IMG/VR virus record: IMGVR_UViG_3300006990_004842
Location: 1 to 64,000 of that record
Source of the DNA: a virus
Length of the DNA: 64,000 nucleotides
Direction: 5' to 3' (one strand)
Made by a program: the position numbers and the translations under genes. Positions 6,259 through 63,975 of the stretch are shown here, in pieces. The stretch's first letter is position 1; every line of letters begins with the position of its first letter. The notes under the pieces were generated by a model. The model did not search any database. It was not told where the DNA came from and worked only from the letters and a program-made list of their open reading frames with translations.

Positions 6259-6657
6259 TTAGAGTGTTCCTCTTTTTCTCTTAGAAGAAATAAATGCGTT
6301 TCTCAAGTCTGAATATGCTCTACGTTTTCTCTTAGACTTCATGAACTTTTGACTTGATGGTGTTGGTAATGGAGCATCACCAGCAACAAGATTTTTCATT
6401 CTTTCTTTCTGAACTCTCTTTTTGGCTTGTGATTTCCTACGTTGATTTTTAGCACTTGGCTTTTCATAAAACTCTCGTTTCGCAAGTTCTTTTTGGCGGT
6501 TATCATTTTCCAAGATTTTTTTCAATCTTCTCAATGCACCATTTACATCACCGTTGCGAACGATAACCTTTGCACCAAAAGGTTTTTCTTCCTTTTGCTT
6601 ATTTTTATTGAAAGGGCGTTTTTGAAAGTTACCTTTTCCTCTAAAATTATTTCTCAT
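6259..6657 (-). CDS. rpsU: ribosomal protein bS21 with N- and C-terminal tails
   Basis: Residues about 30-88 match bS21: VIVRNGDVNGALRRLKK, then REFYEKPSAKNQRRK and a basic helix. Cellular bS21 is usually about 65-75 aa; this one is 132 aa, with a ~30-residue basic N-terminal tail and a ~45-residue C-terminal tail ending in SSKRKRGTL. bS21 sits on the 30S platform beside the anti-Shine-Dalgarno end of 16S rRNA and influences initiation. Phage bS21 genes are known from marine phages. It starts 11 nt inside the end of clpX in a late operon. It could reprogramme host ribosomes for late mRNAs (inference). Confidence 0.88.
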   Translation of the reverse strand: MRNNFRGKGNFQKRPFNKNKQKEEKPFGAKVIVRNGDVNGALRRLKKILENDNRQKELAKREFYEKPSAKNQRRKSQAKKRVQKERMKNLVAGDAPLPTPSSQKFMKSKRKRRAYSDLRNAFISSKRKRGTL

Positions 6658-7906
6658 TTATACCTCTATATAGTTTATATTTTGTGTCACTAATAATGTT
6701 TCCATCCTCATATTCTAAATCTGGATTGTAATCATTGTCAGGATATTTATTCATAAGTATCGTTACAACGCCTTCTTCTCGAAGATTAGGAGCTCTATAC
6801 ATTAGATTTATTAATGAATTGTCAACAATACTTCTAATGCCTCTAGCACCAATATTCATGTCAATTGCCTGTTCAGCAACAGAATTTATATACTCGTCAC
6901 TAAACTCAATATTAATGTCGTCGATACTTAAAATATACTTTACTTGATCAAGAACATTATTTTTAACATTTTTAATTATACTATATAAATGTGTTTTGTC
7001 AAGTTTATCTAATACTGCAATTATGGGCAGTCTGGATACAAACTCAGGAATGAGTCCGTATTCTATAACATCTTTGTGTTCTAAGAATTGCACAAAGTTC
7101 TCAGCATCTGATACTATGTTAGCACCAAATCCTATGTTATTCTTGCTTTTAAGTCTCTTCTTAATAACTTTGTCTATGCCTACAAATGCACCGCCTACAA
7201 TAAACAATACATTAGCAGTATCAAATTCTACATAATCTTCTACCATTGATTTTTTATTGTTTGAAACTTTTATTTTAACTACTGTGCCTTCTATTAGTCT
7301 TAGGAGTGCTTGTTGAACACCTTCACCACTAACGTCGCGTGTAGCCGTGTTAGATTCGCTCCTACGGGCCTTTTTGTCTATCTCGTCTATGTATACAATA
7401 CCTTTCTGTGCTAGTTCTAAATCATAATTAGCAAGGCTCAACAGACGCTCTAAGACGCTCTCTACGTCTTCTCCAACGTATCCTGCTTCAGTTAGTGTAG
7501 TTGCATCTGCTATAGCAAAAGGTACACCTAATTTTTTTGCTAGTGTTTTAGCAAATAGTGTTTTACCAGTACCAGTAGAGCCTGTTAACAAAATGTTACT
7601 CTTGTCTACTTCTAAATCGCCTGGGTTATTGTAAACTCTTTTGTAGTGGTTGTATGCACTAACACTTAACATTTCTTTGGTTTGTTTATGACCAACGATA
7701 TGGTCATTTAAGAATTCAAATATTTCGGGTGGGGAGGGTAAATCAACGGGTGCTATTTCTGGGTCTTCAGTTTCATTAGTTACAATGTTGTAACTTAATG
7801 TGATACATTCATCACATATAAAAACATTAGGGCCGGCTATAAGTTTTTTAACTAAGTCTCGTTTTTTACCGCAAAAACTGCACTCTAAATTAGTATTGTC
7901 TGACAT
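6647..7906 (-). CDS. clpX: ClpX-type AAA+ unfoldase
   Basis: Full-length ClpX, 419 aa: N-terminal zinc-binding domain with C9, C12, C31 and C34; Walker A GSTGTGKT at 109-116; pore loop GYVG at 142-145; Walker B IVYIDE at 170-175; and GARG sensor 2 at 353-356. The IGF tripeptide that docks on ClpP is kept at 258-260, so it should work with host ClpP; no clpP is seen here. The RKH pore-entry loop of cellular ClpX is replaced by a Lys/Ser-rich stretch (NNKKS, 216-220), which may change substrate choice. It is first in a late operon with an octamer 5 nt before the ATG. Confidence 0.95.
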
Positions 7907-17694: not shown

Positions 17695-18300
17695 ATGGCC
17701 ACTGTTAAGAAATATAATTTAGCAGGTTTGAATGCAAACGTCGAACTTGGTAAGCAAGGTTCATATATCACGGGCGGAGCAAGTGAGATTGGATTCTATG
17801 CAAATGGAGGTGCTTTACAAAAACTTAAGATCGCAAACGCGACAGTAGCAAGTGAAGCAATTACAAAAGCTCAGTTGGATGATGTTGCGGCAGACTTATT
17901 ACAACACGTCACAGTTGATGTTGATTATGATAGCGGTTCTGCTAATATTGCAACAGTTGGTGCCGGCACTAGAGTAATCAGTGTTACAGTAGATGTACCA
18001 AGTGCATGGTCAGCAACAAACAACACTGGAACGTATGTTGAAGTAGGTGACAGTGATAACCAAGCAAGATATATCAGAGCACAAGATATAGATGTTTTGA
18101 AAGCGGCACAATATCACAGCCAATACCAATATGAATATTCAGCAGAGGGAACTCTCACATATGATATTACTCAAGGTAGTGCATCGGCTGGACAAGCAAC
18201 AGTTAGTATTGTGTTAGCAAGTGATAGTGTAAGTGTAACAGACTATGGTACAATTACTCAAGCACAAAATAGTAATAGCGACCTCGGTAACATTAGTTAA
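17695..18300 (+). CDS. virion-type protein with VKxYxxxGxxxNVELG N-terminus (1 of 3)
   Basis: 201 aa. The first 20 residues (VKKYNLAGLNANVELGKQG) and the later VTVDVDYDSGSANIATV, VGDSDN and TYDITQGSASAGQATVSI blocks are shared with the genes at 18315 and 59812. The beta-rich, Cys-free sequence with many Thr, Ser and Ala suggests a virion surface or decoration protein. A late octamer and a GGGAG site precede it. The three copies are clearly paralogues; no enzyme motif is present in this one. Confidence 0.7.
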   Translation: MATVKKYNLAGLNANVELGKQGSYITGGASEIGFYANGGALQKLKIANATVASEAITKAQLDDVAADLLQHVTVDVDYDSGSANIATVGAGTRVISVTVDVPSAWSATNNTGTYVEVGDSDNQARYIRAQDIDVLKAAQYHSQYQYEYSAEGTLTYDITQGSASAGQATVSIVLASDSVSVTDYGTITQAQNSNSDLGNIS

Positions 18301-18314
18301 TATAGGAGTTTAGC

Positions 18315-18866
18315 ATGGTTGATTCTGTAAAGAATTACGGCATTGCAGGTGTAAGTGCAAATGTAGAATTAGGCAAAGGCGGACCAAGAGTAATAAGCAG
18401 TAGTGATGATATCTCCCTATTTGCAAATGCTGATACTCTTGCCACAGCAAATATTGCGGCAGGCACCGATGATGCTCATGCTGTAACCAAAGCACAAATG
18501 GAAGAAGCAACAGGATCACGTGTACAGAATATTACTGAAACTGTTACATATGATGGTGGTAATCAATTTTTGTTTACTGTACCAGCAAACTCGACTATTC
18601 TTAGTACCATGATTGAAAAAACAACAGGTAACTGGACTAATTATAACACCACCACTGATATAACTGTTGGTGATGCTGGAAATAATAGCAGACTGTATGG
18701 TGTAGGTTTTGAACCAGATGGCTCTCAGCAAATTGATGAGACTAATCACAAATACACTGCTGAAACTGATTTGTATGCGTATGTAACACAAGGTGGTGCA
18801 TCAAGTGGTAGTGCCACAATTAGAATTATGTTTAGGGGATCGGAAGTAGATCAAACTGCTCCATAA
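18315..18866 (+). CDS. virion-type protein with VKxYxxxGxxxNVELG N-terminus (2 of 3)
   Basis: 183 aa; starts MVDSVKNYGIAGVSANVELG, almost identical to the start of the VWA protein at 59812. It shares the VPANSTILS, TDITVGDAGNNSRL and TQGGASSGSATIRI blocks with it. It lies 14 nt after its paralogue with AGGAG upstream. A beta-sandwich virion decoration or fibre-attachment protein is the best guess. Confidence 0.7.
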   Translation: MVDSVKNYGIAGVSANVELGKGGPRVISSSDDISLFANADTLATANIAAGTDDAHAVTKAQMEEATGSRVQNITETVTYDGGNQFLFTVPANSTILSTMIEKTTGNWTNYNTTTDITVGDAGNNSRLYGVGFEPDGSQQIDETNHKYTAETDLYAYVTQGGASSGSATIRIMFRGSEVDQTAP

Positions 18867-43792: not shown

Positions 43793-45367
43793 ATGGCAAA
43801 ATATTTAATATCGTTAGATAGTGAAGTATATGCTGATAATGCGGCTGGTGCTACAGCCATTACTGATACGGGTGCATCAATTTACACTACGTTTAACTTA
43901 CCGTTAACGTATGAAATTGAAGCAACGCCAGAGCAAATGAACGACATCAGTAATATTACATTACAAGAATATTCAACACTTTCAACGCAAATTATACCTC
44001 AAGGTGCAACATTTAGTTTAGCACACTTGAATTACACTCAAGATCCGCAAGGAAACATTACGTATCAAAACGTACAAAATGGTGCAGGAGTAGATGTATT
44101 CTTGATTGATACAGGAATCAACCCATCTCACCAAGAATTTACAACTGCAAACATTTCCAACTTGTGGTCAAATTTTTCAGATGATAGCGAAATAGATGAT
44201 TACCTCGATGTTGTTGGGCATGGAACAGCAGTTGGAAGTTTAATTGCAGGTGGTAACATTGGCGCGGCTCCAGGCGCACAAATTCACAATGTTAAACTGT
44301 TTAATGCAGTTGACGGTAATGTCACTATAGGTCAAATTGTAAACAGTCTAGATGCTGTATATAACTATCACCAAAGCAATGATAACACAAAACCTAAAAT
44401 TGTTTGTACACCATGGGTAATCAGCCAAAACAGTTTTGTTGATGCAAAGATTCAACAGATGAATCAGAACAACATGATTGTTGTTGCATCAGCCGGTAAC
44501 AATGGACAAGACGTAAACATGTATTCACCAGCAGGAAATGATTTTGCAATCACTGTAGGTGCATTTAACAGCAGTAATGAAGTAACAACATTTACTAATG
44601 GTCCTACAACAGACGGTAGTAGTGGTTTTGTAAACTATGGTTCGGCACTAGATTGTTTTGCACTAGCAGTAGATATTAGTGTTGCTGATAGCAGTAATGT
44701 TGCAAACTATAATACGTCAACAGGAACAAGTTTAGCGGCAGGTATTGCGGCAGGTGCTCTTGCAGGTTATGCTCAACGTGATACTGATCTAAGTGCTCCA
44801 GAACTTAAAGAAAGATTCTTAGCAGAAGGTCACATGTGGGGAGTCAACGACTTAACATATGATAATGCCAATGTTAACTATAGCACAGTTTACAAATCAA
44901 TGGTAACAACCATAAGTAATCAAACACCAGTTTTGTTTGCAGAACAATCAGGTAGAATTAAAAACGTACAACATGGTACAACTACAACTTTTGATTTAGG
45001 CAAAGTTGCCAACTCTGCAGAAATTGCAGTACTAGACTTTGCTCCTTTACCACCGTGGATCAGTTTAGATGTAAACACAGGTATTGTGACAATTGATGGC
45101 ACTCATGCAGACTGTAGTGCAGATTTAGCACCAGGTGTATATATCTTTGCTGTCAAAGGCACAGTGTCACCTACAGCAGATTCTGCAGACAATGTTATTG
45201 TTGTTGAAGAATACAGTGTTGGTTTATATACAACAAATGAATCAGAAGTGGATGGCAGTGGTGACGGTGCAATCAGTTCATACTACTATGATAATAGTAA
45301 TAACGAATATGATGAAGTTGTAAACTATCAAGTTGCTCCTTCAAGTACACCATCATTTAAGCACTAA
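43793..45367 (+). CDS. subtilisin-like serine protease (S8) with beta-rich C-terminus
   Basis: 524 aa. A propeptide-like N-terminal domain (about 1-95) is followed by the S8 catalytic domain: Asp106 in VFLIDTGIN, His143 in VGHGTAVGSL, oxyanion Asn in SAGNNGQD (near 237) and Ser313 in GTSLAAG (Leu for Met, Gly for Pro). A C-terminal Ig/cadherin-like part (about 385-475, PLPPWISLDVNTG) and a Ser/Tyr-rich tail follow. No secretion signal, so it is probably virion-bound or acts inside the cell. It could process virion proteins or cleave host surface proteins. Confidence 0.88.
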   Translation: MAKYLISLDSEVYADNAAGATAITDTGASIYTTFNLPLTYEIEATPEQMNDISNITLQEYSTLSTQIIPQGATFSLAHLNYTQDPQGNITYQNVQNGAGVDVFLIDTGINPSHQEFTTANISNLWSNFSDDSEIDDYLDVVGHGTAVGSLIAGGNIGAAPGAQIHNVKLFNAVDGNVTIGQIVNSLDAVYNYHQSNDNTKPKIVCTPWVISQNSFVDAKIQQMNQNNMIVVASAGNNGQDVNMYSPAGNDFAITVGAFNSSNEVTTFTNGPTTDGSSGFVNYGSALDCFALAVDISVADSSNVANYNTSTGTSLAAGIAAGALAGYAQRDTDLSAPELKERFLAEGHMWGVNDLTYDNANVNYSTVYKSMVTTISNQTPVLFAEQSGRIKNVQHGTTTTFDLGKVANSAEIAVLDFAPLPPWISLDVNTGIVTIDGTHADCSADLAPGVYIFAVKGTVSPTADSADNVIVVEEYSVGLYTTNESEVDGSGDGAISSYYYDNSNNEYDEVVNYQVAPSSTPSFKH

Positions 45368-51213: not shown

Positions 51214-54200
51214 TTATGATGTACTTGACCAACGTCTAATAATATACTTTAATCTCAACTCTGCACCAATGTTGTGTGCAGTATAAGTAAATGGTGTAAC
51301 ATTCGGATCTACAATTTGATTTTGTAATTTAAGTTCTACTTCGTCGCCATTTAACACTGCTTCAAACTGTGGTTCTACTACAGGGTCACTTGAACTAATC
51401 TCGTATGAACTAGAGAATGTATCATTTAATACTACAGCATTTGCTGGGTCACTGAAATCAGTCCTTGCAGACACAGTCATAGTACCAATTCTCATATACT
51501 TGTTTGCAGAGCCTGCCTTCTCAGTTAATGTATAGTCTAATACAAAACTGTTAAACACACCAACACCAACACTAAACAAGGCGTCTCCAGCACTGTCGCT
51601 TAACAGTATTGGTTCAATTGTCAAAGAGTTATATGTTGTTGTAGTTTCGCCAAATGCCGCGGCTTCTCTGGTCTGTAATTCTAAATTTGTTTTTAGATTT
51701 AATAATCCTTTAGTACCATCAGATGTATCAGTTTCTCTGTCTATTGGACTTTGATTATAAATTTTATTTGACAACTCATTAAAATAACCTGCTTCTTCTC
51801 TGGTAGCAAAAGTTATTTCATTGTATGTTGTATCTATAACTAAATCAAATGAATCTGCTAAGTTATTATTAATATGTGTTAATCCACTTGCATACAAAGG
51901 ACCGCCTGTGAATACATCAACAAACATATTAACATCTCTGTCTTTAATTAATCCATCTAACCAAGTTTCTAATTTTGCTCTAACAGTATTATTTGCTCTG
52001 TCATACTCGCCCGGTGTTAAACCCAAAACACTTAAAGTTGGTCGAGTACTATCTTCATATAATGTGAACGGTATACCACCTGCCGCTACACTGGATAAAC
52101 TTGGTCTTTGCGATACATACAATTTATTCAAACTGCCATCTTCTTGCAAACTCCAATTCATTGTTGGGAAAATACTGGTGTTTGCACCTGTTGCTGTTGT
52201 CTGAACTAATGATCTATTAAGTGTAACAATCGCATCTTGCACACTACTAGCACTTGATAAATCAACTGATAATACTGGTGCTACCTTTGTTGTTCCTGTG
52301 TATGAAGAACCTAACACAGGCATCATTCCATTAGCACCATTAGAACCTTTTAATGCGGAAGTATCTGAACGCATTGAACCGTTAGTAACAAATACAGTAT
52401 TTGCTGTTGTTTGATCTGCATCAATAGTTGATGTAGTGTTTACTATTGTTCCGTCGTTGTCAACTGTTATAATAACACTTGTGACTAAACTTGTAAATCC
52501 ATTATCTTCTGATACCAGTCTAAAACTAGTATCAACGTTTGCTGAGCCAACGCCGTGATCTATAAATCCAACATTAGCAATATTTGCAGTCATGGTTGCT
52601 GTGTTACCACCAAGTATACCATTCTGTATTTCAATCAAGAAAGAATTATTAGCAGTAGACACTTCTTGTACTTCAAAAATAGCATCATCTAGTGTGCCTG
52701 CATCAACCATTCTCACATAATTACCTACTGCAAGTCCTTCAATAAAATTGCTGTCTGCACTAGAGATTGATACATTGGTTTCACCTGCTTGACTAGTAAC
52801 TAAATTAGCCTCGCCATATCTAACCAAATTCCATGATGTTTGTGGTATGGTAATATCTAATGTTTTTGCTGTGTCATTAATATTATGCACATTAAACATT
52901 TTGTTGTTGAGATAATCGTTTACATTAGGTGTTTTTACTTTTGCTTTATTATAACGATATGTTCCGCTGTCAACACTAAAGATTGAATTGAAGTTTGCAT
53001 TATCAAACTCAACAGTATATTTTGTAGGTGTACTTGTACCTGAATGATACGTGCTAACATTACCTGTTACATCAGCATCATAAAATTGATCTTCTCTGCC
53101 AATAATGAATGAACCTAATTGTAATGGACTTGGCAATGCAACAATATTTGCACCTTCTGCATATACTGCAATATGTTTATTTTCTAATGCAAAAAATCCA
53201 GTACCAGAACTTGTACTTACTCTGATATTCTGTTCTGGTATTTTTCTATGATGCGGAATACTGTATGCATCATAAAAACTATTTGCTTGGTTTGTTGCAG
53301 AAATATTTCCGTTAACACCTGTTAATGCTAAATTTACATTTGCGTTACCGTAATAGCAAACTGAAACATCGTCTGTTACATTTGGTGCTGTTCTCAATGT
53401 TAAAGTATGATAACCAGTAGAAGTAATATTGCTACCATTAAATGTATAATCTGAATTTGCACTTGGTATTGATAGCACAGAAGCATTGGATTCTGGTATT
53501 AGTTTAATACCATTTTTTCTCACAATAACATCAGTACTCTTAAATGTATCAGTGTTATGGTTATTAACAATGTTGTTAGGTATAAATTCTATATTGGAGT
53601 TTTGAGTTAGTGTTTGAGCTCTATTCAATGTAATTGTATAATTGTTAAAACCATCATTTACAATATTGAGAAGTTTAACTTGGTCTCCAGTAATCTCTGG
53701 ACCAGTTAAAAAATCACCTATACGTACACCATCAAAGTCTGCAGGATTTCCTGCATTATTAATCACAAAAGTATCAGAACCATTTACATCTGCATTTGCT
53801 AATAAATGTACACTGTTAGTTGTTTCGGTACTGAATACAGGAAAGTCAGAACTCATATTGTAGAATTCTGTTTTAACACCTGCACTTGAACCTGTTAATA
53901 AAGAACGTACTTCTTTTGCTTCGATAGAATCTGAAAATTGTGTACCATCAAACTCTCCCTTTTTGATAAAGTAAAAAGGAACTGTAAATGCAATAATGTT
54001 ATTGTTTGAAATACTTATTACATGGTCTCTGGCACTTACGGTGTTCTCAATAAAACTAGTGGTACTAAGATCAACAGAATTAGGATTATCAGGATCATGC
54101 CCAATATATACTTGCTTACTATCAACAGCCAAACCAATTTCACCTGGTCGCAAAGGCTGTGGGAGATCTTGTTTAAGTCCTCTTCTGTGTTGTATTCTAG

Positions 54201-54228
54201 ATACTATAGTTTTATCGTTTTCTGCCAC
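51214..54228 (-). CDS. large fibre/baseplate-like structural protein, 1004 aa
   Basis: The N-terminal segment RIQHRRGLKQDLPQPLRPGE followed by IGLAVDSKQVYIG resembles the N-terminal domain of phage fibre proteins such as Mtd, which attaches to the virion. The remaining ~950 residues are Thr/Asn/Ser-rich beta structure with repeated AN(V/T)xxx patterns, as in fibres or baseplate proteins. The start appears to be GTG at 54228 with GGAG upstream and a late octamer at 54254-54261. A receptor-binding or adaptor role is inferred. Confidence 0.78.
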   Translation of the reverse strand: MAENDKTIVSRIQHRRGLKQDLPQPLRPGEIGLAVDSKQVYIGHDPDNPNSVDLSTTSFIENTVSARDHVISISNNNIIAFTVPFYFIKKGEFDGTQFSDSIEAKEVRSLLTGSSAGVKTEFYNMSSDFPVFSTETTNSVHLLANADVNGSDTFVINNAGNPADFDGVRIGDFLTGPEITGDQVKLLNIVNDGFNNYTITLNRAQTLTQNSNIEFIPNNIVNNHNTDTFKSTDVIVRKNGIKLIPESNASVLSIPSANSDYTFNGSNITSTGYHTLTLRTAPNVTDDVSVCYYGNANVNLALTGVNGNISATNQANSFYDAYSIPHHRKIPEQNIRVSTSSGTGFFALENKHIAVYAEGANIVALPSPLQLGSFIIGREDQFYDADVTGNVSTYHSGTSTPTKYTVEFDNANFNSIFSVDSGTYRYNKAKVKTPNVNDYLNNKMFNVHNINDTAKTLDITIPQTSWNLVRYGEANLVTSQAGETNVSISSADSNFIEGLAVGNYVRMVDAGTLDDAIFEVQEVSTANNSFLIEIQNGILGGNTATMTANIANVGFIDHGVGSANVDTSFRLVSEDNGFTSLVTSVIITVDNDGTIVNTTSTIDADQTTANTVFVTNGSMRSDTSALKGSNGANGMMPVLGSSYTGTTKVAPVLSVDLSSASSVQDAIVTLNRSLVQTTATGANTSIFPTMNWSLQEDGSLNKLYVSQRPSLSSVAAGGIPFTLYEDSTRPTLSVLGLTPGEYDRANNTVRAKLETWLDGLIKDRDVNMFVDVFTGGPLYASGLTHINNNLADSFDLVIDTTYNEITFATREEAGYFNELSNKIYNQSPIDRETDTSDGTKGLLNLKTNLELQTREAAAFGETTTTYNSLTIEPILLSDSAGDALFSVGVGVFNSFVLDYTLTEKAGSANKYMRIGTMTVSARTDFSDPANAVVLNDTFSSSYEISSSDPVVEPQFEAVLNGDEVELKLQNQIVDPNVTPFTYTAHNIGAELRLKYIIRRWSSTS

Positions 54229-56880: not shown

Positions 56881-57228
56881 TTAATTCGCCTTTATATCAC
56901 TTAGTGCTTTGTCGCCTGCCATTTTACCAACATCAACTGTAGGTTCTGCATCAGTGTCAACATCGCCACTTAATTCATCTGCAGGCACAATTTTTTCTGA
57001 ATCTGCACTACTTGCAAATCCTGAATCTCTTACTTTTTTAACAAGTGTGTCTATGTCAATTAAATGTCCTTGTTTTGCTAACAAGTCCTGAAATAATTCT
57101 GTAGGTATAGACTTTGCATCCATTCTAGTCATCACTTCAGACGATAGCAAGTCACCGATAGCATCATCCATTTCGCTATCTGCTGTTTTTTGTGCATACT
57201 CCAGCAATGTGACTTCGCGAATTAACAT
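56881..57228 (-). CDS. small virion-type protein with targeting-like N-terminus
   Basis: 115 aa. MLIREVTLLEYAQ contains IRE and LLE sites of the I/L-x-E type. The remainder is acidic and helical with a Lys/Asn end. It overlaps the preceding scaffold-like gene by 1 nt (TAATG). Probably an internal virion or scaffold protein. Confidence 0.62.
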   Translation of the reverse strand: MLIREVTLLEYAQKTADSEMDDAIGDLLSSEVMTRMDAKSIPTELFQDLLAKQGHLIDIDTLVKKVRDSGFASSADSEKIVPADELSGDVDTDAEPTVDVGKMAGDKALSDIKAN

Positions 57229-58550
57229 TAAATTTCAGCTCTGCCCAATGGCTCCTCTTCAGGACCAGCACTTGCAGGAATATTATCTTCTAAGTCACCC
57301 TCAGGTTCGCCTAGTCCCATATCGCCAGTATCTAAATCGTCGCCGCCTAAATCACCAGTGTCAGCCATTGCTCCACCTGCTACAAAACCTTCTCCTGAAA
57401 GTTCTGCAACTGCTTGATCAAAGCCTGTTTTAATTGCTTTTGTTGCTTCTAAGTGCTGAGACAACAATCCGTTAATGTTATCTGAAAAACTAACTGCTTT
57501 GTCTCCGCCCATTTCGCCACGTACTTGATCAGCAATAGCAGGCAAGTCTTCGTTCATCATACGACCTAATCTTTCTACTTGATCTTGAATATCATCTGCT
57601 AATGCACGTACAGCCATAACAACTTCTGCTTCTTCAACGTTTACTTCTTCAGAAATCATTTCACTTAAGATATCATCAAACATGCTATTAAATTCTTCTT
57701 TAACGTTTGATTTTTTTGATTCTGTTTTATTCATTGCATCTGTAACTTCTTCAGGTTTCATACCTAATTCTTTAGCAATGTCTTCGATACTTTTTCCGTC
57801 TTTCTTTAGTTTATGCATGTATTGAATACTGTCATTTAATTTTCTTTCTGCAATTTTGCGACCAAACATTTGAATACCACTTACAACTGCATCTTCTTCG
57901 AGACCATTAAGGAAACCAACCACTGAGTCTCTGCTTTTACCTGATACTTCTGCAAATTTACCTAACGTTTCTTCGATAGCATCGTAACTGCTAGTGTCAA
58001 CAATTTCAACACCAATCTCTTTAGCAAGTTCTGATAATAGACGTTCATTAAGATCGCTGTCTATACTTTCTGCACTTGCCATAACAGCACCGCTACCACA
58101 TTCATCCATGTAGTCTTTTGCCGCTTTGATAACAATAGTCTTTGCTGTGTCATCGTCGTAAGCAAAACGATTGTCCATTCTGTAACGGTTCATGCATTCT
58201 GTACATGCTTCATCCATTGTATAACCGCTGTCCATAAGTTGTCTTACACTGTCAGAAATCATGCCTTTCATTTCCATATATGCAGGTGATTCTGCATACA
58301 TGCCTTCTGCTAACATGACGTCTATTGCATCTCTAATACCTAAAAATTTTGCATATTCAGGTTCTAGTTGAAACTTTTTATTGCTGTTGCGAAGTTTGAC
58401 TACGGCCAAATTAGCAGTTTCTTTTAACTCAAGCAACTTTCTCTTTGGCAAAAATGCCTTCTTAAAAGAAACACCAAACTCTTCGCCCAACACTTTTGAT
58501 ATTTTGCCTAGTTTGGAACTAGGTGTTGGATTTAATTGATTTAATAACAT
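57228..58550 (-). CDS. scaffold/internal virion-type protein, 440 aa
   Basis: Acidic, helical protein with MLLNQLNPTPSSKLGKISK at the start, FLGIRDAIDVMLAEGMYAE (about 70-88), SIEDIAKELGMKPEEV (a helix-turn-helix-like segment near 255-270) and a Gly/Asp/Glu-rich tail (about 390-440). The layout fits a prohead core or internal protein. A late octamer (58583-58590) and an AGGAAACC site precede it. Confidence 0.65.
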   Translation of the reverse strand: MLLNQLNPTPSSKLGKISKVLGEEFGVSFKKAFLPKRKLLELKETANLAVVKLRNSNKKFQLEPEYAKFLGIRDAIDVMLAEGMYAESPAYMEMKGMISDSVRQLMDSGYTMDEACTECMNRYRMDNRFAYDDDTAKTIVIKAAKDYMDECGSGAVMASAESIDSDLNERLLSELAKEIGVEIVDTSSYDAIEETLGKFAEVSGKSRDSVVGFLNGLEEDAVVSGIQMFGRKIAERKLNDSIQYMHKLKKDGKSIEDIAKELGMKPEEVTDAMNKTESKKSNVKEEFNSMFDDILSEMISEEVNVEEAEVVMAVRALADDIQDQVERLGRMMNEDLPAIADQVRGEMGGDKAVSFSDNINGLLSQHLEATKAIKTGFDQAVAELSGEGFVAGGAMADTGDLGGDDLDTGDMGLGEPEGDLEDNIPASAGPEEEPLGRAEI

Positions 58551-58582
58551 AGTGGTTTCCTATTCATAACTGTAATAGTACT

Positions 58583-58590
58583 TATTTATC
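58583..58590 (-). promoter_or_regulatory. late promoter octamer
   Basis: GATAAATA on the minus strand, 32 nt before the ATG at 58550; leadered with AGGAAACC. Confidence 0.6.
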
Positions 58591-58615
58591 ATTTTATTGA
58601 GAATTGTGAAAGGAC

Positions 58616-59068
58616 TTAGAATAGGTTTTGTACATTGCTTAAGGCATATTTCTGCCTTAATACAGTTTCTATGAGTCTGTGACGTGTGGCTTCAAACTTA
58701 AAAGCGTCTTTTGTGGTCTTCATAGTGTGTCTATAAAACATGCATTCGTTTTTTGCATCAACATATTTGTTTATAAGCTCTTGTGGCTTTCTAAACATAC
58801 CACCGTCTCTAATAGTCTGTTGGTGCAATTTCTTGCTGTTTAGACGCACACAGAGCACGTTAGCAAGTTTTTTAGTGGGAATGTAGGTCAATACTACCCT
58901 TTTGGTTATAGCCTCTAAAATTTGATACATTTCTATGGACTTGTCATAGGAAATCACAAAGACACCACGTTTAGCAACATTTTGTGCTATCTTGTCTAAC
59001 TTTTTACCTATAACTCTTTTATTCAATTTTACTTTTTTGTGGGTAGACCTTGAAACCAACGATATCAT
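58616..59068 (-). CDS. hypothetical basic protein, 150 aa
   Basis: Start at 59068 (MISLVSRSTHKKVKLNKR) is supported by AAAGG about 9 nt upstream; the frame continues further up but without a site. Strongly basic with many Tyr and Lys (KKLDKIAQNVAKRGVFVISYDKS). It overlaps the 74-aa gene by 50 nt. Perhaps nucleic acid binding; not recognised. Confidence 0.55.
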   Translation of the reverse strand: MISLVSRSTHKKVKLNKRVIGKKLDKIAQNVAKRGVFVISYDKSIEMYQILEAITKRVVLTYIPTKKLANVLCVRLNSKKLHQQTIRDGGMFRKPQELINKYVDAKNECMFYRHTMKTTKDAFKFEATRHRLIETVLRQKYALSNVQNLF

Positions 59069-59243
59069 TTTTTCTGACCTTTTGTAGTATGTTTCTACAA
59101 TACATGTCTTCTGCCATGTATCTTGTTCTCTCGTCAAATTTATTTATTGGACAAAACTTTTCAAAATCTATTTTATTGAACAGGCGAGTCTCATCTCTGG
59201 TGATGAAACTTAAATTACCATTTTTGCATTTAACTGCTTTCAT
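59019..59243 (-). CDS. small conserved phage protein, 74 aa
   Basis: MKAVKCKNGNLSFITRDETRLFNKI at the start and RTRYMAEDMYCRNILQKV in the middle; small proteins of this type recur in marine T4-like phages. It is short and basic at both ends; function unknown. Confidence 0.6.
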   Translation of the reverse strand: MKAVKCKNGNLSFITRDETRLFNKIDFEKFCPINKFDERTRYMAEDMYCRNILQKVRKNDIVGFKVYPQKSKIE

Positions 59244-59245
59244 GT

Positions 59246-59800
59246 TTAACCGCCGGCATGCATTGCGGCCATATGTGCTTTATATTTTTTAGTGCCTTTC
59301 TTATGTGGGCTTTTACCTTCGTCTAAACCTAATTCTGCTATAGCATCTTCTATTGCTTTTCCTGTGTCTCTGCCACGATAAAACTCTGGCATGTTATCAG
59401 ACATAAATGATTCTATTTCATCTTTGCTTTCGAAGTTATCTAAACCTTTTTCATTAACTAATGCAACTAATATACTTACAGCCTGTTCTCTTTTGGGATT
59501 GCTTTCAGACACTTTCTTTTTCTTAGAAAACACAGAAGGATTTTGGCGTCTGTGCAGTTTGCCCATTGGCATGGCAAAACTTCCTATTGCTCCGGCTACT
59601 GTTTCTTTTAATGATTCTACGATTTCAAAATCATCATCTGATGTACCACTATAACGTGATGCTCCTACAGCACCTGATTTGATCCTGGCCTTTTGTTTGG
59701 CACTATTGTCGCTCATAGCCGTAACATGATATACTTTACCAGTTTTTTTATGCTTTACTTTGTAGTGCTTAAATGATTCTGTTAGGTCTGAAATCTTCAT
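59246..59800 (-). CDS. basic virion-type protein with capsid-targeting-like N-terminus
   Basis: 184 aa from the ATG at 59800, 5 nt after a late octamer. MKISDLTESFKHYKVKHKKTGK has an LTE site fitting cleavage after a short targeting peptide. The middle is Ser/Lys-rich (HRRQNPSVFSKKKKV), followed by a helical part and HKKGTKKYKAHMAAMHAGG at the end, a module common in marine phage virion proteins. A packaged DNA-binding protein is plausible. Confidence 0.68.
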   Translation of the reverse strand: MKISDLTESFKHYKVKHKKTGKVYHVTAMSDNSAKQKARIKSGAVGASRYSGTSDDDFEIVESLKETVAGAIGSFAMPMGKLHRRQNPSVFSKKKKVSESNPKREQAVSILVALVNEKGLDNFESKDEIESFMSDNMPEFYRGRDTGKAIEDAIAELGLDEGKSPHKKGTKKYKAHMAAMHAGG

Positions 59801-59805
59801 AATAG

Positions 59806-59813
59806 TATTTATC
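59806..59813 (-). promoter_or_regulatory. late promoter octamer
   Basis: GATAAATA on the minus strand, 5 nt before the ATG at 59800; leaderless prediction. Confidence 0.65.
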
Positions 59814-60978
59814 AATCATAAGATACGTTGGGAATAGAATAACCTAAACTGTTTAAGCCGTTAATAACTTGGTTTGCATAGTATGTAGCATTTGCTCCAG
59901 CAATCACATCAGTTTCAACACGTACTTCTACGTTTGCTCTATCACTAAGTCCTGCTGTACCACTGTAATTACCAGTACCATTTATAACAGCATTAACATA
60001 ATCTTTATATCCGCCATAACTACCAGGCCCTGTGTTTACTTGGAACAACACACTTCTAAAATATGAACTGCTATTTGCTGTTTCTGCAGTTGCTATTGTA
60101 CTTCTCAGTGAAGTAATATCAGTGGTATGTTGAGTAGTTGGGTTAGTTGGATACGTACTAGTTGCACCATACGGTGAGTTTTCATCTGAGAATACCAAAT
60201 TAATGACCTGCGTAACATTTGAATTTGAACCCATTGTTTCCATTTGGCTCCATACTCTTTCATTGCCTTCTTCTGTGAATGAAACATTATTATCATAAGC
60301 ATCACCGTCGTCATCATAAAAAGGTAATAATGCATTTTTAAGTACATCATTTTTCATAGTACGTAAAGGTGTTAACGAACTATTCATACTACCACTGCTG
60401 TCAAAGAATATATTGATTTCTGTTTGCGTATCAATTTGATTTTGCGGTGCGGCAAACAATGTGCCACCTGAATATAAAATCATTACTCTTGCTGTACCCG
60501 AAGTTGCACCACCTTGTGTTACTGTGCTTCTCAATGTTGTTCTATTACTGTAAAGATAGTTTGTTTCATCAACTGTAGAAACTGTGGGATCAAAATGTGT
60601 AAACAATCTATCAGGATCTGCACTATCACCAATAGTAATATTTGTATTAGCATCAGCACCAGCCCAATTTGTTAATGCTTCTATACTAACACTTAAAACT
60701 GTTGTGTTAGCAGGAACAACTATCATATTAGTAGTACTGCTATCATAAGAAATAACGTTGCTAAATGTTCTATTAATGTTTATACTTTCCAATTGAGAAA
60801 GTGTTTGTGCCTGGTCTGCATTTTCACCGGGTGCTACTTTTGCTCTGTTGAGATCGTTGTTTCTATCAAACAGAGAAATGTCATCATCACTGGAAACAAT
60901 AGTTGCTTGATATTCTCTACCAAGTTCAATATTTCCACTTACACCAGTTATGCCATAATTTTTAACTGAATCTACCAT
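59812..60978 (-). CDS. virion-type protein fused to a von Willebrand factor A domain
   Basis: 388 aa. Residues 1-175 match the decoration-type paralogues at 17695 and 18315 (MVDSVKNYGITGVSGNIELG, VPANTTVLS, TNITIGDSADPDRL, TQGGATSGTARVMI). Residues about 185-388 form a VWA domain: INIFFDSSGSMNSS contains the MIDAS DxSxS (D193, S195, S197), QVINLVFSDEN the next strand with acidic residues, and VRVETDVIAGANA near the end. VWA/MIDAS domains bind protein or glycan ligands through a metal. Likely virion-surface adhesion. TAATG overlap with the preceding gene. Confidence 0.82.
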   Translation of the reverse strand: MVDSVKNYGITGVSGNIELGREYQATIVSSDDDISLFDRNNDLNRAKVAPGENADQAQTLSQLESININRTFSNVISYDSSTTNMIVVPANTTVLSVSIEALTNWAGADANTNITIGDSADPDRLFTHFDPTVSTVDETNYLYSNRTTLRSTVTQGGATSGTARVMILYSGGTLFAAPQNQIDTQTEINIFFDSSGSMNSSLTPLRTMKNDVLKNALLPFYDDDGDAYDNNVSFTEEGNERVWSQMETMGSNSNVTQVINLVFSDENSPYGATSTYPTNPTTQHTTDITSLRSTIATAETANSSSYFRSVLFQVNTGPGSYGGYKDYVNAVINGTGNYSGTAGLSDRANVEVRVETDVIAGANATYYANQVINGLNSLGYSIPNVSYD

Positions 60979-61556
60979 TATTTTTTCTTCCCACCTTTCA
61001 TGTTAGCACACCAGTGATACATTTTACCACGTTCACCACTGTACTTTTTTGCTTTTGCTCTTAAACTTGTTACAGAACCTTTACAACTGGCTCCTGCTTT
61101 TTTAACTCTGCCCGGTCTGCTTTTGCCTTTTTTCTTACCGTCAGCAAAGTTTTCGTCTAATTTACTTGCGTCTATATACCAAACTTTTGCTTTGCCTTTT
61201 GTACTAATAAGTCCTATAAGTCGTGTGTTGCCTGCTATAAGTTCTAATTTACCGTTTGGCATTTTCATCACAATAGGCATTTCTATTGTACCTGACTTCA
61301 TTGCTTTTTTCAATCTTTGAACTTTTTCAGGTTCTAAATCTGCAAGTGTCTCTGATCCATCTGCGCCAGTGTTGCCTATCTTCTTTACAATATTACTATT
61401 TACATTAGCAACTTTACCAGTCTGTGCTAATTCTATCCATCCATCTTTACCTAACTTGTCTAAGAACGGATAGCGATTTGCTTCTTCCCATTCTAGATCA
61501 AACTGTGGCTCAGCAAAGTTTTCATCTAGTATACTTATAATTTCACTTATCAGCAT
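60978..61556 (-). CDS. ParB-like domain protein with targeting-like N-terminus (1 of 2)
   Basis: 192 aa. MLISEIISILDENFAE carries ISE and LDE sites. Residues about 80-125 (LEPEKVQRLKKAMKSG, then KLELIAGNTRLIGLIS) match the ParB/Srx fold, where GNTR binds nucleotide. The C-terminus is basic with GASCKGSVTSLRAKAKKYSG and CANMKGGKKK. ParB folds act as CTPases, nucleases or phosphotransferases. Possibly a packaged enzyme; overlaps the preceding gene by 14 nt. Confidence 0.72.
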   Translation of the reverse strand: MLISEIISILDENFAEPQFDLEWEEANRYPFLDKLGKDGWIELAQTGKVANVNSNIVKKIGNTGADGSETLADLEPEKVQRLKKAMKSGTIEMPIVMKMPNGKLELIAGNTRLIGLISTKGKAKVWYIDASKLDENFADGKKKGKSRPGRVKKAGASCKGSVTSLRAKAKKYSGERGKMYHWCANMKGGKKK

Positions 61557-62274
61557 CGTCGATGTCCTTTTTCAAATCATCTAAGTCTGCTTCTATATCA
61601 TATAGTCTAAACTTATTTACTTTGTCTTCTTGTCCTGGTTTTAACTCAGGATGAAATTTCATTTCAACTATTCTAGCATCTTTCTTTATAGACTTACCAT
61701 CCACTAATACTTCAACTTCAAATGGTACATGTTTTTCATACCAATATGCCATCTCATATCCGCCATCGTCTAATAATTTTACTAATAGTCCTCTGTCGTA
61801 ATCTTTTTCTTCTGCTTTGAGTACTTTCATTTCACCACGTGGTAAATTCAAAGCAATGTTCCTATCACCTGATGTAGGTTTATCTTCTTTTACTTTTTCA
61901 TTTTTGACACAGTTAGGCACACGTTTTCCAAACATGGTTTTCATGCCCTTCTTCTTGTAGCCTTTCCAACATTTTTCAACTATTGTTTCTACAATGCTTG
62001 GGTCTATTTCTTGTGCTGTAAATTGTTGCATCAATTCAACAATGTCATCATCGTGATCTAAAATTTTATAATCAGCATCAACTATGAGTGCTACATTGTC
62101 TTCGTAACCATGATTCTCACCACTAAGTACATGCATTCCATTACTTAATTCTATATGGTCTTCTTGGTTGACCCATTGATGAATAACTGATTCTACTTCT
62201 TCATGTGGCAGTTTACCTAACTTAGGTGCTGTATTAAGAGTAGTTAAATCTTCTATGATTTCGTTAATAAGCAT
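61543..62274 (-). CDS. virion-type protein with CWKGYKKKG module
   Basis: 243 aa. MLINEIIEDLTTLN at the start has INE and IIE sites. IVETIVEKCWKGYKKKGMKT, then FGKRVPNCVKNE (about 92-128) is a two-Cys basic module frequent in marine phage virion proteins. The C-terminal half is beta-rich (YWYEKHVPFEVEVLVDGKSI) and ends acidic. A packaged or scaffold-linked role is inferred. Confidence 0.65.
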   Translation of the reverse strand: MLINEIIEDLTTLNTAPKLGKLPHEEVESVIHQWVNQEDHIELSNGMHVLSGENHGYEDNVALIVDADYKILDHDDDIVELMQQFTAQEIDPSIVETIVEKCWKGYKKKGMKTMFGKRVPNCVKNEKVKEDKPTSGDRNIALNLPRGEMKVLKAEEKDYDRGLLVKLLDDGGYEMAYWYEKHVPFEVEVLVDGKSIKKDARIVEMKFHPELKPGQEDKVNKFRLYDIEADLDDLKKDIDDADK

Positions 62275-62278
62275 GTTA

Positions 62279-63433
62279 CTACATCATGTCCTTGTACTTG
62301 TCTTTGAATATTTTCCAAGACTCTTGTTCATCATACATCCATTTAGGATCTTTGCGTTTTTCTTGAAACCAATGTGTAAAGTTTTCAATAGGACTCTGGT
62401 TTCGATTATATTTCCATTCATTATCTAATTCGCGTCTAGCAGGTACCATAACATCTAACATGCCATCTCCCGAGTCTTTTCTAGGATTCTTAAAGATGTC
62501 ATGATTTCTCTGAAACGTTTGGCTTCTACCCCTTCTAGGATTATTAGATCTTTTGTAAGTTTTGATATCTTCAGCAGTGTGTGCAAAAGTTTCCATTATG
62601 GAATCTAACTTTGCTTCAACCTTGATTGCTTTTACATACTTTTTATTTAATTCTAAGACAACATCTAATCTATGGTGACCGTTTATTAATACATTGTTTT
62701 CATCAATTATTAAAGGGTCGTAATTATTACTAGTAATTTTTTCAAATGCCTTTTTATGCATTTTTTTAGATCTGTCTTTTTGTACAGTGACTATACTTTC
62801 AGTTTTTATAAAACCTTTTTTATATGATATGTTTGCATCTAGTAAATCTTGTTCATTAATTTGAGGCATGTCTTTTCTTTCATACACGCCTTTGCCAAAG
62901 TCAAATCCACTGCTTGATTTCTTTTTCTTCTTTTTCTTTTTAGAATTTTTACTAGGACGTAATCCATAAGCAAAAAAGTGTCCTACGCCACGTGGTTCTG
63001 CAGTAGGGGTGGAGTCAGGGGAATTCGAATCGCCAGTATCGGCAACTCCGGAATCTGCAGACCCGCTGTCTCCACTTGAACCTGTTGAACCGCCATCACC
63101 ACCAGCACTTGCACCAGCACCAGCACCAGCACCAGCACCAGCACCAGCACCAGCACCCGCACCACCGCCTCCGGCTTCAGCATCTATACGTGATTGCGAA
63201 CGTACTTGTTGCTTATTTTCTTGTTCCCAACGTTGAATAAGTGCTCTTGCATCACGTGCCATAACATGGAATCTTGCTTGAAGCTCACGTTGTATTTGTA
63301 CTTTACCCATGCCTCGTTGTACAAGTTTTGATATTACATCGGTGTACACCGAATAATCATGCATTCCGTACTTGTCGTAAGTGAGGTCTGGAAACCTCAT
63401 ATCGCCTTCTCTAAAAAATTCGTTTAATTTCAT
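62279..63433 (-). CDS. ParB-like domain protein with Gly-Ala linker (2 of 2)
   Basis: 384 aa. MKLNEFFREGDMRFPDL at the N-terminus has an LNE site. Residues about 30-75 are helical; 86-108 are an (Ala-Gly)n run; then an acidic Gly/Ser linker and a Lys-rich stretch. Residues about 240-275 (YDPLIIDENNVLINGHHRLD) form a ParB-like nucleotide site with GHHR, and DARALIQRWEQE an N-terminal helix. The tail (about 330-384) is Trp/Arg-rich. ATGA overlap with sodC. Confidence 0.68.
   Translation of the reverse strand: MKLNEFFREGDMRFPDLTYDKYGMHDYSVYTDVISKLVQRGMGKVQIQRELQARFHVMARDARALIQRWEQENKQQVRSQSRIDAEAGGGGAGAGAGAGAGAGAGAGASAGGDGGSTGSSGDSGSADSGVADTGDSNSPDSTPTAEPRGVGHFFAYGLRPSKNSKKKKKKKKSSSGFDFGKGVYERKDMPQINEQDLLDANISYKKGFIKTESIVTVQKDRSKKMHKKAFEKITSNNYDPLIIDENNVLINGHHRLDVVLELNKKYVKAIKVEAKLDSIMETFAHTAEDIKTYKRSNNPRRGRSQTFQRNHDIFKNPRKDSGDGMLDVMVPARRELDNEWKYNRNQSPIENFTHWFQEKRKDPKWMYDEQESWKIFKDKYKDMM
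63111..63157 (-). repeat. GCACCA hexanucleotide repeat encoding Ala-Gly
   Basis: Nearly perfect six-nucleotide tandem repeat (plus-strand form) encoding the Ala-Gly run in the ParB-like gene. Copy number is probably variable. Confidence 0.85.
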
Positions 63434-63975
63434 TCTGATAACCTTATAACCCCACAGCCAACTCTGTCACCAGCGTTTCCTGTTTTCAAACTTTCCTCGT
63501 CACCACCTTTGCCTAAATCATCTACATCAGCATGTACAACTATTGCTCTGCCTACAACACTTCGATCGCCATGTAAATCAACACGTGGTAATACTAAATC
63601 TATTTTTGCAACACCACTATCATCTGCAACAATATTGCCTAAGTCGCCTACATGGCCTTCTTTGATATTGCCATGATCGACTCCGTCTGGATTGTAGTGT
63701 GGTCCTGCACTTGCACAACCGTCACTTAAATCACCAAACTCATGTATGTGAAATCCATGCTCACCAGGTTCAAGTCCACTTACTTCACCCACTAACATTG
63801 TAGGCTGACCTGGATTTTGCTTAAACAAAAAATGTCCTACAACATCACCCTCTGTGTGTTCTAGTTCGCATTTTGCTTTGATTGTTTGTTCTGCTTCTTG
63901 TAAACCTTTGATACCTGCACAATCACAACCTTTTGCTTTTGTTCTAGGGCAACTTTTTACTTGTGAAAATTTCAT
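63430..63975 (-). CDS. sodC: Cu/Zn superoxide dismutase
   Basis: 181 aa. All metal ligands are present: H76 and H78 (GFHIHEFGD), bridging H93 (GPHYNP), H101, H108 and D111 (HVGDLGN), H148 (VVHADVDD); disulfide Cys87-Cys174; RVGCGVI ends the domain. It converts superoxide to peroxide and oxygen. Unlike host SodC it has no Sec signal; instead the N-terminus is MKFSQVKS with a Cys-rich stretch (CDCAGIKGLQEAE, I/L-x-E at LQE). The extra N-terminus fits packaging inside the virion. AAGGGA precedes the ATG. Confidence 0.93.
   Translation of the reverse strand: MKFSQVKSCPRTKAKGCDCAGIKGLQEAEQTIKAKCELEHTEGDVVGHFLFKQNPGQPTMLVGEVSGLEPGEHGFHIHEFGDLSDGCASAGPHYNPDGVDHGNIKEGHVGDLGNIVADDSGVAKIDLVLPRVDLHGDRSVVGRAIVVHADVDDLGKGGDEESLKTGNAGDRVGCGVIRLSE

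Follow-up and report, generated by a model that had tools for sequence, protein, structure and literature searches.

The window analyzed here is a 64,000-nucleotide stretch of marine viral DNA (positions 1 to 64,000 of IMG/VR record IMGVR_UViG_3300006990_004842). It belongs to a 98.6-kb contig, itself a fragment, whose genes for a UvsX-like recombinase, a phage single-strand-binding protein, and the large terminase subunit fit a T4-like phage; in the part of it that was read, we identified neither major capsid nor tail genes. On the minus strand (60978..59812, with an ATG start at 60978 and the stop codon at 59812-59814) we found an open reading frame for a 388-aa fusion protein, in which a cement-type N-terminal region is followed by a VWA-like module. 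An earlier note on this DNA had placed the gene at exactly these coordinates without giving the strand. Full-length relatives were recovered from other metagenomes, with 61% identity over 387 residues (L004) and 51% identity (L005/L006), and the fusion is thus no assembly artefact or chimera.

The fusion gene overlaps each of its neighbors by a few bases, with TAATG at its start, and appears to be arranged as in a translationally coupled operon. The same operon includes a gene at 57228..58550 (minus) whose product weakly resembles a family of virion structural proteins (phrog_14154, E 1e-10), and about 6 kb downstream of the fusion gene lies that of a 1004-aa protein with a major tropism determinant N-terminus (Mtd_N; 51214..54228, minus; PF18454, E 4.8e-6; phrog_15647, E 0.0068), which is of virion or receptor-binding type. 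Several neighbors in the operon (56881-63433, minus) have products that start alike (MLIREV, MLISEII, MLINEII, MKLNEFF, MKISDL). Other genes of the window encode a Cu/Zn superoxide dismutase with an extra N-terminal segment (63430-63975, minus; PF00080, E 4e-44), homologues of which are found inside larger proteins of 480-1028 aa in relatives (L155, L156, L172), a subtilisin-like protease with a C-terminal extension (43793-45367, plus; PF00082, E 3e-24; phrog_3677 protease), and a phage-encoded ClpX-like AAA protein with a zinc finger (6647-7906, minus). The T4-like phage contig also encodes a TonB-dependent receptor of 538 aa (L105:7540-9156, minus; about 88539-90155 of contig G000), with matches to the barrel (PF00593, E 5e-13) and plug (PF07715, E 1e-11) families and a homologue at the end of L023.

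Comparison with related loci predicts that the fusion gene is accessory and relocatable. In three of them (L150-L152) it is cleanly absent, its flanking genes lying 4 bp apart and the 57228-58550 neighbor being 85% identical, and in L004 it is found at another site, between homologues of two genes that lie side by side in the contig of the window (L104 17113-17970 and 17955-18320). In L023, the N-terminal domain is encoded by a stand-alone gene, 25 bp after a head-annotated "virion structural protein" gene (phrog_13484, E 8e-25) and two genes past the terminase.

Fold of the N-terminal region

The earlier note had described the first 175 residues as paralogous to two distant proteins, and sequence comparison bears this out. 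Residues 1-174 match positions 18315-18848 of the same contig (44% identity, E 2.7e-35) and residues 4-176 match positions 17701-18237 (28% identity, E 8.5e-16). These matches fall in two tandem genes about 41 kb away on the plus strand, both lacking a VWA module: the first encodes a 201-aa protein (P0002, 17695..18300) and the second, the closest paralogue, a protein of 183 aa (P0003, 18315..18866). The tandem pair is kept together in many contigs, mostly without a VWA partner nearby.

We modeled the two regions of the fusion protein separately with AlphaFold2, the full-length mixed alignment having contained scrambled fragments. From an alignment of 36 sequences, residues 67-172 (60463..60780, minus) were predicted to form a beta-sandwich with pLDDT > 90 over most of its length. 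Structural comparison using VIA-align matched this domain to phage cement proteins (KHP30, Z 12.2; Pam1, 10.3; KHP40, 10.3; GP4, 8.4), followed closely by the foot domain of a roseophage tail fiber in the R4C tail complex (Z 8.2). Foldseek likewise recovered the Pam1 cement protein (E 9e-6), and profile searches with the N-terminal region gave weak matches to KHP30 gp15 (E 0.0097) and Pam1 (E 0.088). The cement proteins of GP4, KHP30, and Pam1 are capsid-surface trimers located at (quasi-)threefold axes (PMC9698820). Compared with these Ig-like trimeric cements (KHP30 gp15, KHP40, Pam1, and GP4 gp1), which have the fold of residues 67-172 in common with it (Z 8.4-12.2), the fusion protein has an extra 66-residue N-terminal region, and the contig holds three gene copies, one of which carries a C-terminal VWA.

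Residues 1-66 (60781..60978, minus) comprise an N-terminal segment (MVDSVKNYGI...ELG) and a short neck-like helix (AxTxxQLE), both delimited from the alignment and a low-confidence model (pLDDT about 46-69). For the stretch preceding the beta-sandwich, a profile search of the PDB gave a weak match (E 0.0023) to a neck of the trimeric autotransporter adhesin type, and we regard residues 1-66 as a candidate docking or trimerization part. The models support the "decoration-type" label that the N-terminal region had been given, in the sense of a predicted fold common to capsid cements and the R4C marine tail fiber. As the R4C fiber has the same fold as the cements, the fold would suit placement on either the head or the tail.

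The VWA-like module and its putative metal site

The module (residues 183-388; 59815..60432, minus) was modeled from an alignment of 45 sequences, comprising relatives in IMG/VR and one bacterial relative. AlphaFold2 predicted a VWA fold for the C-terminal 213 residues, with strands and helices in VWA order (pLDDT 95.3, pTM 0.92). The closest VIA-align match was to the integrin beta-I domain (Z 10.5, 158 residues aligned, rmsd 3.2 Å), followed by the VWA domains of ITIH1, VWF A1, integrin alpha-I, and RGLG, and nearly every match listed was a VWA/I domain. Foldseek returned nothing below E 0.001 against the PDB; against BFVD, the best match was an unnamed protein (E 2e-17, 28% identity), and the next were viral proteins annotated as VWFA. 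We therefore assigned the fold from the VIA-align and BFVD matches.

Sequence searches of Pfam, PHROGs, and the PDB, both with the single protein and with profiles, gave no VWA match, and the Pfam VWA families PF00092 and PF13519 had no profile match to the module above cut-off. An hhalign comparison with 30 canonical bacterial VWA proteins aligned at motif 1 alone, with a probability of 31%. Taken together, the models support a VWA-like fold that goes unrecognized by the sequence models of Pfam and PHROGs. Structure prediction was the test named in the earlier note as able to refute its claim of a VWA domain with an intact DxSxS motif, and it returned that fold with the motif in place.

The motif (MIDAS motif 1) reads D193-S-S-G-S197 (60388..60402, minus; codons checked), and each of its three putative ligands (D193, S195, and S197) is conserved in 41 of the 45 relatives, over an identity range of about 31-69%. 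D265, within VINLVFSDE (MIDAS motif 3; 60184..60186, minus), and E266 are kept in all 45. The threonine of MIDAS motif 2 is not evident among these relatives, none being invariant and T248 occurring in 38; E240-R241 is kept in 41 of 45 (E240 at 60259..60261, minus). The putative MIDAS is thus not a textbook one, and conservation makes E240 the best candidate for a fourth metal ligand that would replace the VWA threonine in an integrin-beta-like manner. Judging from conservation and a single contrasting clade, E240 is likely equivalent to E220, the fourth-ligand glutamate of integrin beta. In the contrasting clade (L076, L079, L090, and L091, proteins of 1201-1205 aa) DxSxS has been lost and an asparagine aligns with E240, while the fold and D265-E266 are retained, indicating that some members of the family can dispense with metal binding.

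The module thus resembles integrin beta-I (and the VWF A1, alpha-I, ITIH, and RGLG VWA domains) in its predicted alpha/beta VWA fold, its DxSxS motif, and the aspartate after the central strand, and integrin beta also in the candidate fourth-ligand glutamate. In contrast to these domains, it is borne by phages and missed by Pfam VWA models, has about 9-14% identity to them, and is shorter, strand 2 and the DE strand being separated by about 20 residues.

Spread of the module among phages

Relatives of the module are encoded in 60 IMG/VR loci. In 34 of 45 complete proteins it is C-terminal, behind very different N-terminal parts, a position expected of a displayed head group. Its partners include, by sequence similarity, homologues of a crAss-like "structural protein". 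In one locus (L093) the module ends a 2240-aa protein that matches phrog_37948 "virion structural protein" over residues 7-1777 (1470 bits) and has, over its first 1000 aa, 37% identity to a "structural protein" of Cellulophaga phage phi4:1 (E 1e-177); in Cellulophaga phages phi4:1 and phi17:2, the protein homologous to this partner carries a structural annotation. The partner in a second locus (L086) likewise matches phrog_37948 "virion structural protein". These fusions to homologues of structural proteins support a virion-displayed module.

Two module-carrying genes (L046 and L047) are found in a 340-kb phage contig. By inspection, the product of L047 begins with a stretch resembling the cement-type region, interrupted by an inserted domain, and also carries the VWA, and both proteins have an N-terminal GKxG-type motif in common with the family of the window protein. 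A scan for this motif, with a pattern written after the sequences had been seen, returned 40 of 1210 distinct proteins, nearly all from the N-domain family. Two further carriers (L055 and L078) are located among fiber- and collagen-like genes.

In 84,980 species genomes of bacteria and archaea, a single locus carried the module (L103, 7199-11926, in a Verrucomicrobia MAG). In its 1575-aa product, the VWA-like module is combined with eight He_PIG repeats of Ig-like type and with an FGE-sulfatase-type domain; by eye, the start is signal-peptide-like, suggesting a protein of secreted type, and the flanking genes are apparently flagellar. No second bacterial case was found in 289 genomes of the carrier's phylum.

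The earlier note had considered display of a VWA domain on a T4-like virion to be unusual. This holds for the cultured phages covered, given that a tblastn search of 50,697 annotated phage records with the window protein and three modules gave no match, but the module is widespread on proteins of uncultivated phages. Judged from sequence, its distribution is broader than had been supposed. At slightly under even odds, we tentatively put forward a wider reading: the modules would form a so far unnamed family of VWA domains, with a MIDAS of integrin-beta-like (Glu) type, that T4-like, jumbo, and crAss-like phages have in common as a mobile unit of display, individual genes or C-terminal domains being swapped onto different virion proteins and the particles gaining metal-dependent adhesion.

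Proposed function and its alternatives

We propose, with a probability of roughly 0.58, that the fusion is an accessory, virion-displayed, metal-dependent adhesion protein. Its N-terminal segment, neck-like helix, and cement-type beta-sandwich would dock on the particle, probably as a trimer and most likely at the capsid surface, and the C-terminal VWA-like module would be displayed outward. Residues D193, S195, S197, D265, and probably E240 of the module would bind a divalent cation, whether Mg, Ca, or Mn, and a ligand on the host surface, on particles, or on other virions would complete the metal coordination through an acidic group. The outcome would be weak, multivalent, and reversible attachment. 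Computation predicts the two folds, the DxSxS motif with its conservation, the recurrence of the module on other phage proteins, and the accessory status of the gene; incorporation into the virion, the trimer, the preference for capsid over tail, metal binding, adhesion, and the nature of the ligand are our inference.

In its logic, the proposed protein can be compared with T4 Hoc (PMC10385173). Like Hoc, T5 pb10, and N4 gp17, it would combine an accessory particle-binding domain with adhesion-type domains facing outward, if its virion location is as we propose; it differs from Hoc in its reversed order, the docking part being N-terminal, and in having a VWA in place of Ig domains. The Hoc families in Pfam and PHROGs gave no match to the fusion, and a missing profile match is not proof in this regard. 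A full-text literature search, with most subscription papers outside its scope, recovered no paper combining VWA, bacteriophage, and decoration protein.

The strongest competitor, in our view distinctly less probable than capsid display, is a short tail or baseplate fiber, in which the N-terminal peptide and a coiled-coil neck would sit on the tail, the beta-sandwich would be the foot, and the VWA would be a receptor-binding head. The R4C tail fiber (vBDshSR4C_017) provides a precedent, being trimeric and consisting of a coiled-coil rod that docks through an N-terminal extension, followed by a foot domain (PMC10276861) with the fold of residues 67-172 (Z 8.2). The match to an autotransporter neck, the nearby Mtd_N gene, and the fiber- and collagen-like genes around the L055 and L078 carriers point in the same direction. 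The R4C fiber itself lacks a VWA. However, its structural score is below those of the capsid cements (12.2 and 10.3), and the stand-alone N-domain relative in L023 lies beside a head-annotated gene near the terminase, both of which favor the head.

The remaining alternatives are all improbable. The protein might instead reside inside the head and be ejected with the DNA, its VWA binding a host protein in the infected cell; the MLI(N/S)EII-, MKLNEFF-, and MKISDL-type N-termini of its neighbors presumably resemble the short capsid-targeting sequences of T4-like internal proteins. We give this little weight, as the fusion itself has no such N-terminus and carries a cement-type fold in its place, and the same VWA is found on surface-type proteins of other phages. 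As little credit is due to a purely structural or immune-evasion spacer that does not bind in a metal-dependent manner: the clade that has lost DxSxS keeps the module and D265-E266, yet all three DxSxS ligands persist in 41 of 45 relatives despite their divergence. Least probable is a role inside the cell, as a co-chaperone of the MoxR AAA-VWA type or as a chelatase subunit like CobT. Such proteins are phage VWAs with a MIDAS, and the tailed-virus VWA proteins described in the papers we found are of these intracellular CobT and MoxR-associated classes (PMC8651126, PMC7911831, PMC7824862). They act as partners of AAA ATPases, whereas family scans of the 51-64 kb neighbors of the fusion gene, together with a reading of the rest, brought up neither an AAA ATPase nor a CobS gene, and we rejected this type of VWA on that ground; moreover, such systems have no use for a cement-type fusion partner, and canonical VWA profiles fail to match the module.

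For reversible attachment, phage particles are known to use Ig-like and carbohydrate-binding domains. If the proposed display on the virion is correct, an integrin-like metal-dependent module would be a third kind of particle adhesion domain, and integrin-type adhesion folds would work on bacterial viruses. Attachment would then be sensitive to divalent cations, and the way in which phages locate hosts or particles in water would become more tractable. The module is common in uncultivated phages, yet neither Pfam nor PHROGs nor the cultured-phage records searched contain it, an annotation gap that leaves the proteins of 60 loci with no family assignment for their VWA-like module. That it recurs on many proteins of uncultivated phages, unrelated to one another, suggests that it is mobile and that phages wear it on their particles for adhesion.
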